Positions 46,052-52,289 of a stretch of 64,000 nucleotides of DNA are shown here, piece by piece. A model generated the notes under the pieces. It did no database searches, was not told where the DNA came from, and was given only the letters and a program-made list of their open reading frames with translations. Location of the stretch: the NCBI GenBank assembly GCA_937923625.1, contig CALDTV010000016.1, positions 1-64,000 on the forward strand. Direction: 5' to 3'. The stretch's first letter is position 1. Each line of letters opens with the position of its first letter. Made by a program: the position numbers and the translations under genes. The DNA is from an uncultured Alphaproteobacteria bacterium (GTDB lineage: Bacteria; Pseudomonadota; Alphaproteobacteria; Micavibrionales; Micavibrionaceae).

Positions 46052-47074
46052 TTAATTCTTTTGGCAATAAATATAAGATACATAATCTGGTATCATTTGG
46101 CGAGTTTGTAATGTTGTTTTAGGAGTAGGTGAAATTTCTCCAATAGGATAATCCTCAGTAGTTGCATTTCCAACATCTAAAGTTACGTCGTAATATGGCC
46201 GATTTATAGGGGTCCCACTTGCTGTAGCGCCCATTATAAAACGTGCGTCTCCTATTGGAAACACGATCCACCCCTCTGGACATGTATTTCTGTTGAATGC
46301 CATAACCGCGTTAGGGGGAAATTCAAACCCAACATTTTCTTGCCCTCTAAAAGTTAAATAATCATCGAAAAAAGCAGCAGAATTATAATCATTTTCAACT
46401 AATTTTTGTACAAAGGTCGTATTAGCATGATCGCAGTTTTCAGCATCACGTGATCCTGCATTACACGGAATTGATAAATCACCTTCTATTGTGTATCCAC
46501 CTTCGCGGCTTGGCCCATGGCTAATGACAACATAATGCACATTAGACGCAACAGTGATAGCGGGTGTTATTCCTTGAATATCGATAACACCCCCATCAGA
46601 AGTATATGGCGAAGGAGAGCCTGCCGTTGCTTGCCTTTCCGTCACAGCATAAGTAAAGCGATTTCCCCAGGCATCCGAAGCAAAGTCGTCAGGAATATTT
46701 AAGGTTCTGACAGGTACCGCCCCAATACGCACACGCTGCCCAGCTGTCGTGCTCATGCGCCGAAAAGTTCCAGCAAAAGTCCCAGTATTACACGTTGACG
46801 TCACTTCACGGTTATAGTTTGTGTTTGATGCTATTGGCTCACCTATCAAAGAGGCTGGACAAGGATAACGTGCATTTTGACTGAGGAACACGCCAAGCGA
46901 ATCCTTAACAACAGACAATCTATATTCCGTTGCAGAAATTTTATTTTTTTCTATAAAATTAAGTAATGAAGAACCCAAAAAACCAAGCATAATGCTACCA
47001 ATGGCAAGAAAAATAGCCATTTCGATTAAAGTAAAACCTGCCTGTTTTTTTTCTATTGAGTAAGCTTCCCTCAT
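46052..47074 (-). CDS. pseudopilin-like protein with tail-collar-like C-terminus
   Basis: 340 residues from the ATG at 47074 (a GTG at 47092 is possible). A prepilin leader ending QAG precedes FTLIEMAIFLAIGSIMLGFLG, the prepilin-peptidase site with Glu+5 and hydrophobic helix. The middle shares RIGAVPVRTLNIPDDFASDAWGNRFTYAVT with its neighbour. From about residue 255, VMAFNRNTCPEGW and RFIMGATASG and the ending IPDYVSYIYCQK resemble the phage tail-collar domain, normally a receptor-binding tip. A minor pilin acting as adhesin is inferred. It follows the paralogue directly. Confidence 0.65.
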   Translation of the reverse strand: MREAYSIEKKQAGFTLIEMAIFLAIGSIMLGFLGSSLLNFIEKNKISATEYRLSVVKDSLGVFLSQNARYPCPASLIGEPIASNTNYNREVTSTCNTGTFAGTFRRMSTTAGQRVRIGAVPVRTLNIPDDFASDAWGNRFTYAVTERQATAGSPSPYTSDGGVIDIQGITPAITVASNVHYVVISHGPSREGGYTIEGDLSIPCNAGSRDAENCDHANTTFVQKLVENDYNSAAFFDDYLTFRGQENVGFEFPPNAVMAFNRNTCPEGWIVFPIGDARFIMGATASGTPINRPYYDVTLDVGNATTEDYPIGEISPTPKTTLQTRQMIPDYVSYIYCQKN

Positions 47075-47078
47075 ATTT

Positions 47079-48071
47079 TTAGTCTTTTTCACAATAGGTA
47101 AGCGCTATATATGGCGGCACTATTTCAGCAGGCGTTTGTCCAGTATCACCCAGGTCATAAAGCCGGCTCACGCTAGAGCCAGTGGTCACATTATACTGCT
47201 CTTGTGTAACATTCGCGCCACTCGCTGTTCTTCCAATTATAAAACGCCCTTCTAAAGCTGGAGCAAGAGACCATCCAGCAGGACAAGTATTATCGTTAAA
47301 TGCGACAACTCCTCCGGAAGGAAAGTCATCATTATTGCGCTCTCGCGCTTTGAACACGAGAATATCATCATAAAAATTTGTATTTTGCGCATCAGAATTT
47401 AAAATCGTGCGTGTAAAAATACTATTTCCATCACAATTGGTTTCATCTAAAGCGGTGCCCGCACACGTCGCGACTAAAACACCAGCTTGTGTATAAGCCC
47501 CCATTGCTGTCGGGCCGTGACTAAATAAAACATAATGAGCGGAATTTGGTGGATTTATGACCTGCTGTCCAAGATTATTGGCACTATCAGTGATGGCGAT
47601 GGAACCAAGAGTGTTATTATAAAGGCCGTTTGTGGCCAAAACTTGGGTAACAGCATAGGTAAAACGGTTACCCCAACCATCTACTGCGAATTCATCCGGT
47701 AAATTTAAGCTCCGAACGGGAACTGTTCCAATGCGCACACGCGAAGCGGAACGCCCAACGACACTTATAGCACCACTAATTGTGGCGTTAGAGTTACAGT
47801 TAGTGGTGGTGACTTCGACATTAAATGCAGCCGCCCCAGGCGCCGCAGTGGGAGAGGCAGGGCAAGGCAACCTATTGTTAAGACTTAAAAAATTGTCCAT
47901 AGCCGTCTCAATCGCTGCCATTCTAGTTTCAGTTTGATTGATACGACTTTGCTTAAAAAAAGAGGTGAGCGCCCCTCCTAAAAGAGTGAGCAAGACACCT
48001 GCAATAATCATGACAATAGAGAGCTCTATCAGGGTAAATCCCTTGTGATCTTTAGCCGAAGAAATAATCAT
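47079..48071 (-). CDS. pseudopilin-like protein with tail-collar-like C-terminus (paralogue)
   Basis: 330 residues. The short leader MIISSAKDHKG ends at the prepilin cleavage site before FTLIELSIVMIIAGVLLTLLG. The central domain has a Cys-rich start (RLPCPASPTAAP, NCNSN) and RIGTVPVRSLNLPDEFAVDGWGNRFTYAVT. The C-terminus has VVAFNDNTCPAGW, GRFIIGRTASG and VPPYIALTYCEK, as in tail-collar proteins (compare PPYIALNY). AAGG precedes the ATG. It is paired with the next gene four bases downstream of its stop. No secretion-system genes are close by. Confidence 0.65.
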   Translation of the reverse strand: MIISSAKDHKGFTLIELSIVMIIAGVLLTLLGGALTSFFKQSRINQTETRMAAIETAMDNFLSLNNRLPCPASPTAAPGAAAFNVEVTTTNCNSNATISGAISVVGRSASRVRIGTVPVRSLNLPDEFAVDGWGNRFTYAVTQVLATNGLYNNTLGSIAITDSANNLGQQVINPPNSAHYVLFSHGPTAMGAYTQAGVLVATCAGTALDETNCDGNSIFTRTILNSDAQNTNFYDDILVFKARERNNDDFPSGGVVAFNDNTCPAGWSLAPALEGRFIIGRTASGANVTQEQYNVTTGSSVSRLYDLGDTGQTPAEIVPPYIALTYCEKD

Positions 48072-48228: not shown

Positions 48229-48322
48229 ATACTCATGAATTGTTAACTTATACTTAAGAGCTGTTTGCTAAAATACTTTAAGTGGGCATTTAAAATATTA
48301 AAAATTATGGGGGCAAGACATA

Positions 48323-49075
48323 CAATTACAACATTCTCACATAAAGTCTGAGGGCGGAACATCACTCATCGGTATGTCACTTGTAATCATGATGGTAGGC
48401 ATCATGATTTCTGGCGCATCTATTTTATATAAAAATTATGACTCTATTGTCAGCGCCCAAGAAACGATTGATAAAAATTTAGTCATAAGAAATGCGATAA
48501 AAGAATTTGTGAGCAGGAATGGGCGTTACCCATGCCCCGCTCCCCTAAATGCTCCTCCTGATTCTATCAGATACGGTCGCGAAGATAGCACACCTGCCGC
48601 TTCCCCACCTGATTGTGATTCACCAGCTTATTACAACGAAGCAGGTATAAGAGGTACCGGCCCCGTATTAGCCCCTCCCAGTTCCAGCCGTGGGATTTTT
48701 ATTACGCCGGGTCGCGCAACAACAGGCAATATTATTATTGGTACAATACCAACTAGATCCCTGAATATATCGGACGATAATATGTATGATGGTCATGGCA
48801 TGAGATACGTTTATGCGATTACAGCAAGAATGGCTTCGCCGGGTTACGATGTGTCACATGATATTGGCGGCATAGATATTCAAGATGAAAATGGGCAATC
48901 ATTATCAAGCACACCAGGGCATGTTGCTTATAGTTTTTTTAGCCCGGGCATCGATCGTCGTGGCGCTTATAATCACGAAGGCGTCGTTATTGAATCGTGT
49001 GACACCACAAAAGATGCTGGCGAAAATTGTGATAATGATAATGTCTTCAGCGCTGCACTTTTAAAAAGATACTAA
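48323..49075 (+). pseudogene. third pseudopilin-like paralogue without a normal start
   Basis: The first ATG in frame (48374) lies inside the prepilin motif: upstream codons read ...HIKSEGG then TSLIGMSLVIMMVGIMISG, which is the cleavage region. No ATG, GTG or TTG exists upstream before the stop at 48299. A different frame, ATG at 48307 with GGGGG, would give a leader (MGARHTITTFSHK) that joins this frame if one base near 48346 is skipped. So this is a frameshifted gene, a programmed +1 shift, or a gene with an unusual start. The body matches its paralogues (IGTIPTRSLNISDDN) but stops at residue ~233 of the ATG frame and lacks the collar domain. Confidence 0.55.
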
Positions 49076-49096: not shown

Positions 49097-49585
49097 ATGA
49101 ATATAAAACAACAAAAAAAATTATTATTAAGCGCCAGTATTATTGCAATGAGCTTTTTAGGATCACCTAATAGTATAAAAGCACAAAGCAATGACCCTTT
49201 TGCGCATACCTTTTCTTATGAGGCGAGTGTAACACAATTTCATTGGCATACTGGGCCATGGAGAGAATGCGGGTTATCACAGGATCAAACAACAACTGTG
49301 GATGTCTGTTTTTCTTCTGAACAATTTAGAGAAGTAGAATGCCGAGACAATCGAAACCAAGCTGTAGCAGCAGGCCAATGCTCACACACACCACCCCCTA
49401 CAAATAATCAAGTATGTGAGTTACCACCATGCACCATATCTACAGGCAGCTGGAATTGCCCTCCTAGCTCGAGGGGAAGTAGCACAAGCGGCGGAGGTGG
49501 CAGCGATAGAGATACAGTAGATAGCGACGGTGATAATGTAAATGATACCGACGGCGCAGGCCCTTCAGGTGCCTTTGGTGGATAA
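49097..49585 (+). CDS. secreted protein with thrombospondin type-1-like domain
   Basis: 162 residues, AAGGAAAG before the ATG. The signal peptide runs to about residue 30. Residues 47-112 fit a TSP1 repeat: W50, GPWRECG (W55, C58), C71, FREVEC (C82), C95, C107 and C112, six cysteines with the R-x-V-x-C signature. After a Gly/Ser linker, DSDGDNVNDTDG (142-153) resembles the calcium-binding thrombospondin type-3 repeat. TSP1 is common in eukaryotic adhesion proteins and rare in bacteria. It likely acts outside the cell in adhesion. It lies next to the pseudopilin locus on the same strand as the propeller gene. Confidence 0.6.
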   Translation: MNIKQQKKLLLSASIIAMSFLGSPNSIKAQSNDPFAHTFSYEASVTQFHWHTGPWRECGLSQDQTTTVDVCFSSEQFREVECRDNRNQAVAAGQCSHTPPPTNNQVCELPPCTISTGSWNCPPSSRGSSTSGGGGSDRDTVDSDGDNVNDTDGAGPSGAFGG

Positions 49586-49594
49586 AGTAGCGCA

Positions 49595-50887
49595 ATGAAT
49601 AGAAGAGATTTTTTAAAATTATCAGCCTACATAACCGTCGCTTTAAAAGCGGGGCTAATAAACCCTACCTCCGCAATATCAAGTTCGCTTACAACACCTC
49701 CAAAATTAACGGGAAATATTTTTGCGGCATGCTACAACCCTAAAAAAGAAGGCGAATTTTCGCGTAAAACGCATCAATCGGTACTTTCACGTTTAAATCT
49801 GGAAACTGGTGTAGCTCAAATTGTTCCATTTGATTTGCTAAAAGCGCATGATGCGTTAAAAGTACAAAACAATGAATATTTGATTTTACCTAGCTCGCAA
49901 AAAAGTAATTTTTTATATGTTTCTGACTTCGATGGGCATAAACAAAAAATCCATCTTCCTGAGTACTGTGGCATCAATGGTCATGCCTTTTTTGATAAAA
50001 AAGAAAATACAATTATTGTCCCCACTGCAAACGGTGAAGAAAACGGCCGTGGAGAATTTTTTATTTTAGACGCAAAAAATTATAAAATTATTGATCACTA
50101 TGTAACAAATAATTTTTACCCTCATGACATCCAACTTTTAGATCAAAATACTTTAGCCGTATGCAATTATAATGTGGACCGAAACGGATATAATGATTCT
50201 GGATTTAGAGCGAGCCTTTTAAACAATCAAAGCATTCTCTCTTTGCATGACAGAAAAACACTTAAGTGGAAAAAAAATATTCCTGCTTATAATAATATAA
50301 AGATTAGCCACACAACAATAACCAATAATGGAGATCTATTTGCGATAGGAAATAGAGAATACCACGATGAAAGTATTTCAAGCTGGAGTAATGAATATAT
50401 TGAGGATAAATTCGAATCTTTCTTTAAAGAAAATCATTCAGAACTTCTTACGCAATGGCCAGATATCGTTAAACATACCCCCCTGCACCGTGTTGAAAAA
50501 AGCACTGGCGCCTATGGGCTACCAACTCTGCCTATGAAAATGGCAAACGGATCAAATAACCTGCAGATCATACCATTTAACCACTATCACCACAGACGCC
50601 CCCAATCAATATGCTATGTACCGCAAACGAACACGGTATGTATGGCTTTTCCAAATTCTGATAGTATTTTATTATATAATGCCACAACAAATAAATCTGC
50701 CTCTTTGAATGGTAAGGATTTAAATCTTAAAGAAATGCGGGGCATTACACCGATTGAAAACACGCCTTATTTGGCCATAGCAGGGATTAGACGAGGTTTT
50801 ACAATCATTGACACAACAACAAATAAAATTATTCAGCATTTTGATATTGGTATAGGCCGCATCATTCATATGCATCACGAAGTTTAA
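49595..50887 (+). CDS. Tat-exported DUF1513-like beta-propeller protein
   Basis: 430 residues. The start MNRRDFLKLS is a twin-arginine signal. The body repeats WD/kelch-like strands typical of DUF1513 propellers: FAACYNPKKEGEF, SRLNLETG, INGHAFFDKKENTIIVPTANGEENGRG, NNFYPHDIQLLDQNTLAVCNYN, and a C-terminal IAGIRRGFTIIDTTTNKIIQ. DUF1513 proteins often belong to iron-uptake loci; here the neighbours are the TSP-like secreted proteins, so it may be an extracytoplasmic binding partner. Only nine bases separate it from the TSP1 gene. Confidence 0.7.
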   Translation: MNRRDFLKLSAYITVALKAGLINPTSAISSSLTTPPKLTGNIFAACYNPKKEGEFSRKTHQSVLSRLNLETGVAQIVPFDLLKAHDALKVQNNEYLILPSSQKSNFLYVSDFDGHKQKIHLPEYCGINGHAFFDKKENTIIVPTANGEENGRGEFFILDAKNYKIIDHYVTNNFYPHDIQLLDQNTLAVCNYNVDRNGYNDSGFRASLLNNQSILSLHDRKTLKWKKNIPAYNNIKISHTTITNNGDLFAIGNREYHDESISSWSNEYIEDKFESFFKENHSELLTQWPDIVKHTPLHRVEKSTGAYGLPTLPMKMANGSNNLQIIPFNHYHHRRPQSICYVPQTNTVCMAFPNSDSILLYNATTNKSASLNGKDLNLKEMRGITPIENTPYLAIAGIRRGFTIIDTTTNKIIQHFDIGIGRIIHMHHEV

Positions 50888-50909
50888 CATTTTTCAGAAA
50901 GGTATTAAT

Positions 50910-51203
50910 ATGATAAAAAATAAAAAATTATTACTTGGAGCGTGCTTTTTAGCACTCACATTTTTTTATACAAACACTCCAGCCCATGCTTGTACGGAAA
51001 CTAGAAGCGTTCAATGCAAAGATCCAGACGGGAACAACGTCGATATTAGTAATTGCACTCCTAAACTTAGCATTCCATCTTCAACACGTTCATGTAGATC
51101 ATCATGCAGAGCAAGAAGTAGCTCTGAAAGAAGTAGCTCTGAAAGAAGTCGCTCTGATAGTCAAGATACAGATGGAGATAGCCATAATGACTGTTGCACT
51201 TAA
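50910..51203 (+). CDS. secreted Cys/Ser-rich protein with partial TSP1-like motif
   Basis: 97 residues, AAAGGT before the ATG. The signal peptide ends about AHA (26-27). CTETRSVQCKDPDGNNV...C matches the second half of a TSP1 repeat (R-x-V-x-C-x-D), with C28, C36, C49, C62 and C66. It then has a 15-base tandem repeat coding RSSSE (51114-51158) and ends DTDGDSHNDCC, a TSP3-like calcium motif. It looks like a shortened sister of the 49097-49585 protein. Confidence 0.55.
   Translation: MIKNKKLLLGACFLALTFFYTNTPAHACTETRSVQCKDPDGNNVDISNCTPKLSIPSSTRSCRSSCRARSSSERSSSERSRSDSQDTDGDSHNDCCT
51114..51158 (+). repeat. 15-bp in-frame tandem repeat
   Basis: Three units of AGAAGTAGCTCTGAA, the third with two changes, encoding RSSSE repeats inside the secreted protein. 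Confidence 0.85.
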
Positions 51204-51320: not shown

Positions 51321-52289
51321 ATGAATATAAAAATAGCTGCCAGCATTTTATTAATAGGGATCGTCTCTATTAGCGCCTTCGTATTTATAAAAAAGGCCTT
51401 CTTTCCACCGGCAAAAGAAACCCAGAAAATAGAATATTCTTTTAAAGCCACTGATTCCTCGCTCCCCTCAAATGATCCTTTCGAATTTATAAAAGATAAA
51501 ACTTTTTGGGATAAAGATCACAGTAAATACCGTATTTATTTTAACAATAACGGCACTGGAAAATTGCAGTTTTTTACTAATGCCTACGAAAATAGAACTG
51601 GTGATATCAAAAGCTTTAAATGGACAATAACAGATAAAATCATATGTTTTAATTTCACGAATGTGGCATCACAGAATTCTTGTCGTCTTTATGATATTTA
51701 TTATTCAACGGCCAAAACCAAGAAGGTTTACAATAATAGTTTGGTCTTACAAGACCCGTTCTATGGCGAAGAACATATCACGCTCGACCGTCAATATAGT
51801 GGCAACCAACTTATTAAACCTCAATATGCAAGGCAGATAAAATCCATATATTCACGTATGAAAATTATACAAAGAGCTATGTATAAAAGGGAACTTGATT
51901 TTAGTACACCTGGTTATCATGAAGATATGAGTATCAATTTAAAAAAATATTTAAATATGACGGCTAATCATATTTTTTCTTATATGAATAAAGATACGTT
52001 CATTCAAAAAAATGGATCTTATACGCAAATAGTTTCTCTTAAATCCAAAAACTTAAAAACAAACGGTAATTGGTGGGTTTTTGAAAAAATGTTTTTTTGC
52101 TATGGATTTGGGCACATACCATTGCAAGATAAGAAGAGTGCTATCTGCTTGACGACTTTACCTGCCAATATAATGTTAAAGCCTGAGAATGGTTTTGCTA
52201 TGCAAGACACCGACGGATATACGATTAAGGTTACTCAAGAAAATTTTATTAATTTGAATAATTATTTACAGCCAGAATTATTTGATTAA
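51321..52289 (+). CDS. membrane-anchored protein, unknown
   Basis: 322 residues. An N-terminal anchor (IAASILLIGIVSISAFVFI) is followed by a soluble, basic and aromatic-rich periplasmic domain with FEFIKDKTFWDKDHSKYRIYF and two Cys (CFNF, CRLY) that could form a disulphide. It is on the same strand as the secreted proteins and probably ends their locus. It ends three bases before the convergent mltG stop. No family recognised. Confidence 0.55.
   Translation: MNIKIAASILLIGIVSISAFVFIKKAFFPPAKETQKIEYSFKATDSSLPSNDPFEFIKDKTFWDKDHSKYRIYFNNNGTGKLQFFTNAYENRTGDIKSFKWTITDKIICFNFTNVASQNSCRLYDIYYSTAKTKKVYNNSLVLQDPFYGEEHITLDRQYSGNQLIKPQYARQIKSIYSRMKIIQRAMYKRELDFSTPGYHEDMSINLKKYLNMTANHIFSYMNKDTFIQKNGSYTQIVSLKSKNLKTNGNWWVFEKMFFCYGFGHIPLQDKKSAICLTTLPANIMLKPENGFAMQDTDGYTIKVTQENFINLNNYLQPELFD

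Follow-up and report, generated by a model that had tools for sequence, protein, structure and literature searches.

TSP1 is usually regarded as an adhesion domain of animals and apicomplexans, and its appearance in small secreted proteins encoded beside bacterial pilin genes raises the question of whether the domain is genuine and, if so, what would carry it to another cell. The window, the whole 64,000-nucleotide stretch analysed here, belongs to a 2.05 Mb genome (G000) of the same family as the predator Micavibrio aeruginosavorus ARL-13. All three ORFs of the locus given in the preliminary description are present, at 49097–49585 (162 aa), 49595–50887 (430 aa), and 50910–51203 (97 aa), each on the forward strand.

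The TSP1 protein and its partial partner

The 162-aa protein begins with a Sec-type signal peptide recognised by eye (MNIKQQKKLLLSASIIAMSFLGSPNSIKA, approximately residues 1–30), followed by one TSP1 domain (residues 47–113; 49235–49435), a Gly/Ser stretch, and a single calcium-loop motif, DSDGDNVND (49520–49546). PF19030 (TSP1_ADAMTS) matches residues 50–112 over profile positions 1–55 of 55 with E = 7e-5 in a single-protein scan, where the score of 23.5 bits falls just under the cut-off of 23.8, and the same protein reaches 26 bits, above the cut-off, in the genome search. Its six cysteines (58, 71, 82, 95, 107, and 112), two tryptophans, and the Arg and Val of the RxVxC motif align in register with other TSP1 domains, and the Trp and Arg of the CWR layers are conserved. 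Scored with a bacterial TSP1 profile built without any window sequence, the protein obtains 41.3 bits, compared with at most 10.5 in 5000 composition shuffles, and a profile made from distant bacteria only returns 22.7 bits against a shuffle maximum of 12.1. Chance similarity to TSP1 is excluded by these profile and shuffle tests, and the six-cysteine TSP1-like repeat of the preliminary description is confirmed, at the level of sequence, as a genuine and complete TSP1 domain of ADAMTS/THSD7A type.

The same domain is more evident in relatives, with PF19030 matching congeners at 2.6e-11, 1.8e-10, and 1.5e-7, far over the cut-off, and orthologous domains scoring 39–45 bits (best 44.7). When a profile is restricted to Micavibrionaceae TSP1 domains, it matches the THSD7A TSP1 domain of PDB 8oxr over its full length at 1.5e-15. 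The profile search proposed earlier thus succeeds through PF19030 and fails through the classic TSP1 model, PF00090, which finds no match in the window protein in a single scan, none in a search of its own genome (where the control set is equally silent), and in congeners only matches of E = 0.025–0.027, under the cut-off. NCBIfam returned nothing informative for the TSP1 proteins, and a search for related loci with the window TSP1 protein as sole query found nothing. AlphaFold models of this protein and of the pilin-TSP1 fusion of a congener described below, computed from alignments of only 5 and 9 sequences, have pLDDT values of about 30–40 over TSP1, and because of this low confidence the fold assignment is drawn from the sequence.

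The 97-aa protein (50910–51203), which had been described as holding the C-terminal part of the same pattern, likewise carries a signal peptide, so that both proteins appear to be secreted as first proposed. The peptide is followed by a TSP1 segment that begins near the second cysteine, and then by a QDTDGDSHND loop. PF19030 positions 17–52, the C-terminal two-thirds of the domain, match it with E = 0.008, and the bacterial TSP1 profile does so at 1.1e-4 genome-wide, with 25.5 bits against a shuffle maximum of 13.8; the profile from distant bacteria only gives just 13.2 bits against 11.7. A resemblance to TSP3 had also been suggested for the pair, and here the result is negative: PF02412 lists no match for the window proteins at E up to 10, and each holds one DxDGDxxxD motif, so the thrombospondin label should be tied to TSP1 alone. 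The arrangement of a full TSP1 with an adjacent partial-TSP1-like, Asp-loop partner recurs in two congeners, by eye in G001 and by a weak profile match in G002, where TSP1 is part of a pilin fusion and two secreted proteins with Asp-rich loops follow it (E = 0.003–0.01). The G001 pair (L012, 10054–11504) lies away from pilins, and its DTDGDG partner shows a partial-TSP1-like cysteine pattern by eye and no match to the profile.

The rarity of bacterial TSP1 is borne out by sampling, with the domain found at E <= 1e-4 in 2 of 385 alphaproteobacteria and 1 of 398 genomes across the phylum; a dedicated profile finds it in 5 of the 193 nearest relatives. A weak match in G036 was discarded because it lies in the wrong frame and overlaps a tilS-like gene. 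The small alphaproteobacterium G177, of another family, has a secreted protein of 817 aa that contains about seven TSP1 repeats (L096, 5981–8434, reverse strand), and G444 has a protein with a single TSP1 (L097); both are pilin-free. In the window's own family, a short contig of G040 carries an open frame of 700 residues in which two TSP1-like repeats occur (L008, 358–2457, reverse strand), and G001 encodes stand-alone TSP1 proteins with no adjoining pilin, one of which, that of the L012 pair, ends in a helical-looking CxHFxxxG domain shared with a pilin fusion of another genus, G053.

Pilins at the locus and in relatives

The start of the TSP1 gene lies 21 bp past the end of a minor-pilin gene (48307–49075, forward strand), the product of which is the counterpart of the pilin half of pilin-TSP1 fusions in relatives and is 44% identical to the fusion of G002. 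This pilin gene is open for more than 230 codons and retains the family motifs, and its end so close upstream of TSP1 is as expected of an operon. Its leader is irregular, with no canonical start codon in the pilin frame before the prepilin site and no match to PF07963. The ATG at 48307 opens the leader MGARHTITTFSHK, after which the frame switches to SEGGTSLIG; this leader resembles that of G002, MITHISTTRLNEK, from a different frame, so the frame seems to be shifted near 48350. A sequencing or assembly error may account for this, as may decay of the gene or the use of an unusual start; the pilin domain itself is clear from comparison with relatives.

Two further minor type IV pilins precede it on the reverse strand (46052–47092 and 47079–48071), identified by PF07963 (N_methyl; 9.8e-7 and 1.1e-6), alignment, and the pilin tree, and sharing a phage-tail-collar-like C-terminal module; the second is divergent from the TSP1-linked pilin, and such a divergent pair, of a collar pilin and the counterpart of the TSP1-linked pilin, recurs in ARL-13 (L058). 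The collar-like module reads PSGAVMAFN..CP.GW..GR...G ... PPY.AL.YC.K, is shared by ARL-13 and other relatives, and has no match in Pfam. In relatives, many members of this pilin family (L072, L074, L078, L081, L084, and L060) extend into phage-tail-fibre-like VGIGTxxPxxxLHVxG segments, these extensions being 100–600 residues long and without Pfam matches.

The vicinity of pseudopilins, first reported as mere position, turns out to be a far stronger link, as relatives encode this minor pilin and TSP1 as one fused protein. In G002 (CALHAW010000038.1), at the same acpP-fabF-mltG-collar pilin locus, pilin and TSP1 form one 345-aa chain, matched by PF19030 at 2.3e-10, over the cut-off. In G053 (KLAP2), of another genus in the same family, pilin-TSP1 fusions form a tandem array of three, next to which lie a collar pilin and motA/motB-like genes; one of the fusions runs on into DTDGDG and the C-terminal CTHFFRKG... 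domain. The extra module is thus part of the pilin polypeptide in G002 and G053 and separate from it in the window, where two ORFs encode the two parts. ARL-13, G054, G042, G057, and G003 each have a vWA domain, marked by a DxSxS motif, on the equivalent pilin, and in G039 (one genus) that pilin has no module. In the congener G003, the vWA-pilin copy is found not at mltG but between YbaK-like and leuA genes, which flank the window locus too. The vWA assignment comes from a profile, which matches PDB 4rck at 5.6e-6 and PTMP1 at 9.5e-5, a phmmer search of PDB with the vWA pilins having returned nothing; a Foldseek search with the G002 fusion model gave mostly pilin matches, all non-significant (E >= 0.7).

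This pilin family occurs in 80 of 95 relatives, and a tree of the pilin domain separates the TSP1, vWA, and module-free pilins from the collar and fibre pilins with moderate support (79/99), the window pilin grouping with that of G002 (83/92). The tree and the distribution of modules are consistent with the C-terminal module having been exchanged on one and the same pilin. The machinery for such a pilus is encoded elsewhere in the genome, with contig C10 holding PilB with MshEN, PilC, two PilT-type ATPases, a TPR protein, and a secretin, adjoined by prepilin genes, which makes extending and retracting pili likely. PilY1 (PF05567) gave matches in 0 of 29 cases with positive controls equally silent, so this is no sign of a true absence.

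The Tat-signal protein between the two TSP1 genes (49595–50887; RRDFLK motif), the propeller of the preliminary description, appears not to share in this association. Its sole relative among 94 other genomes (G085, L116; 49% identity) stands in a different context and is followed by a homologue of the ORF at 51321–52289, so that 49595–50887 and this secreted partner are probably a separate, patchy two-gene cassette, and a part for the propeller in the adhesin is unlikely.

Proposed display on the pilus and competing explanations

Since relatives fuse TSP1 to the same pilin, these bacteria probably display TSP1 on pili to touch cells. With the TSP1 homology, the fusions, the alternation of vWA and TSP1 within one pilin clade, and the machinery genes in hand, we infer pilus display and, likewise, docking of the split form, a tip location, a ligand, and a role with prey. 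The reading we favour, with somewhat more belief than doubt, is that the TSP1 protein serves the tip of a type IV pilus as an interchangeable module and, in its split form, docks on the minor pilin. One minor pilin, usually divergent from a collar-type minor pilin, would bear a C-terminal module that varies with lineage between TSP1, vWA, and no module at all; for the window, the TSP1 module would be supplied by its own gene, 21 bp after that of the pilin, with its own Sec signal peptide. Exported to the periplasm, the TSP1 protein would dock on the minor pilin and travel to the pilus tip, where the partial-TSP1 partner with its calcium loop may join it. Driven by PilB/PilT/PilU motors, the genes of which lie elsewhere in the genome, the pilus would extend and retract, pressing the disulphide-stiffened TSP1 against a protein or glycan of another cell, plausibly bacterial prey, and drawing the cells together.

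The irregular pilin leader bears on two other explanations. The TSP1 and partial-TSP1 proteins may be free secreted or surface-matrix ligand binders, the pilin being an irrelevant remnant of a split ancestral fusion, which we consider possible if on the unlikely side. Both proteins have signal peptides of their own, the window pilin leader is apparently frameshifted, and no pilin lies near the TSP1 protein of G001 and its partner, near the second TSP1 protein of that genome, or near those of G177 and G444; against this, the pilin gene remains open for over 230 codons with the family motifs kept and ends 21 bp upstream as in an operon. The G001 proteins do imply that the module can also work off pili. 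The same apparently frameshifted leader, together with the unbroken fusion that G002 has at this locus, could instead point to the split as an assembly artefact or a recent mutation of an ordinary pilin-TSP1 fusion. This seems improbable, as a well-formed signal peptide like those of the G001 stand-alone proteins separates the end of the pilin from the domain, and no simple indel yields one.

Convergence of a short cysteine-rich repeat on the TSP1 pattern is a very remote prospect. Whilst the domain is short and its single-protein Pfam score lies slightly under the curated cut-off, shuffles of the same composition score far lower, orthologous domains attain 39–45 bits, and the family profile matches THSD7A over its full length with Trp, Arg, and all six Cys in register.

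Beyond the tip module itself, contact with prey or eukaryotic cells, conceived of in the preliminary description, is plausible in that it agrees both with the pilus setting and with membership of the Micavibrio family. A more specific proposal, which we regard as possible though unlikely, is that a predatory lineage makes contact with its prey through TSP1 and vWA as interchangeable modules of a retractable pilus, TSP1 being delivered in this species as a separate two-protein tip complex, of full and partial TSP1, docked on the pilin. TRAP-type apicomplexan invasion adhesins combine TSP1 with vWA.

Relation to known modular pilins

We know of no attachment receptor in Micavibrio, and a pilin adhesion module is a concrete, testable gene in this respect. 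That TSP1 occurs on a type IV pilin, and that relatives, a known predator among them, have vWA in its place, suggests a way in which epibiotic predators could switch prey recognition. The window domain shares a full-length match, six Cys, Trp, and Arg with the TSP1 domains of THSD7A/ADAMTS (PF19030; PDB 8oxr), but is bacterial, single, and set beside a pilin (fused to it in relatives), and by eye bears no C-mannosylation or O-fucosylation signature.

To our knowledge, neither CofB/CofJ nor TcpB/TcpF contains a TSP1 domain. In both systems a minor pilin bears a docked secreted protein (PMC8179133, PMC12075869), an arrangement equivalent to that proposed for the split form, where docking is inferred. 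The Kil/Tad tips of Myxococcus xanthus, also a predator, are similarly interchangeable minor-pilin tips with variable domains, and exchangeable pilus tips matter in its predation (PMC12075869); they differ in belonging to a Tad-type pilus and in carrying other modules, with no mention of thrombospondin in that paper. Among the open-licence papers searched, none was found that describes a pilin with TSP1, which suggests that, within this literature, TSP1 as a pilin module is apparently new, modular pilins as such being already known. The closest of these is PilB of Streptococcus sanguinis, a modular type IV pilin with vWA, and both vWA and lectin modules are known on pilins (PMC8179133). PilB and the proteins described here have in common an N-terminal pilin and a grafted eukaryote-like adhesion module, with relatives of the window pilin even using vWA; in contrast to PilB, the module here is TSP1, which in the window is secreted as a protein of its own. 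TSP1 thereby lengthens the list of modules known from modular pilins.
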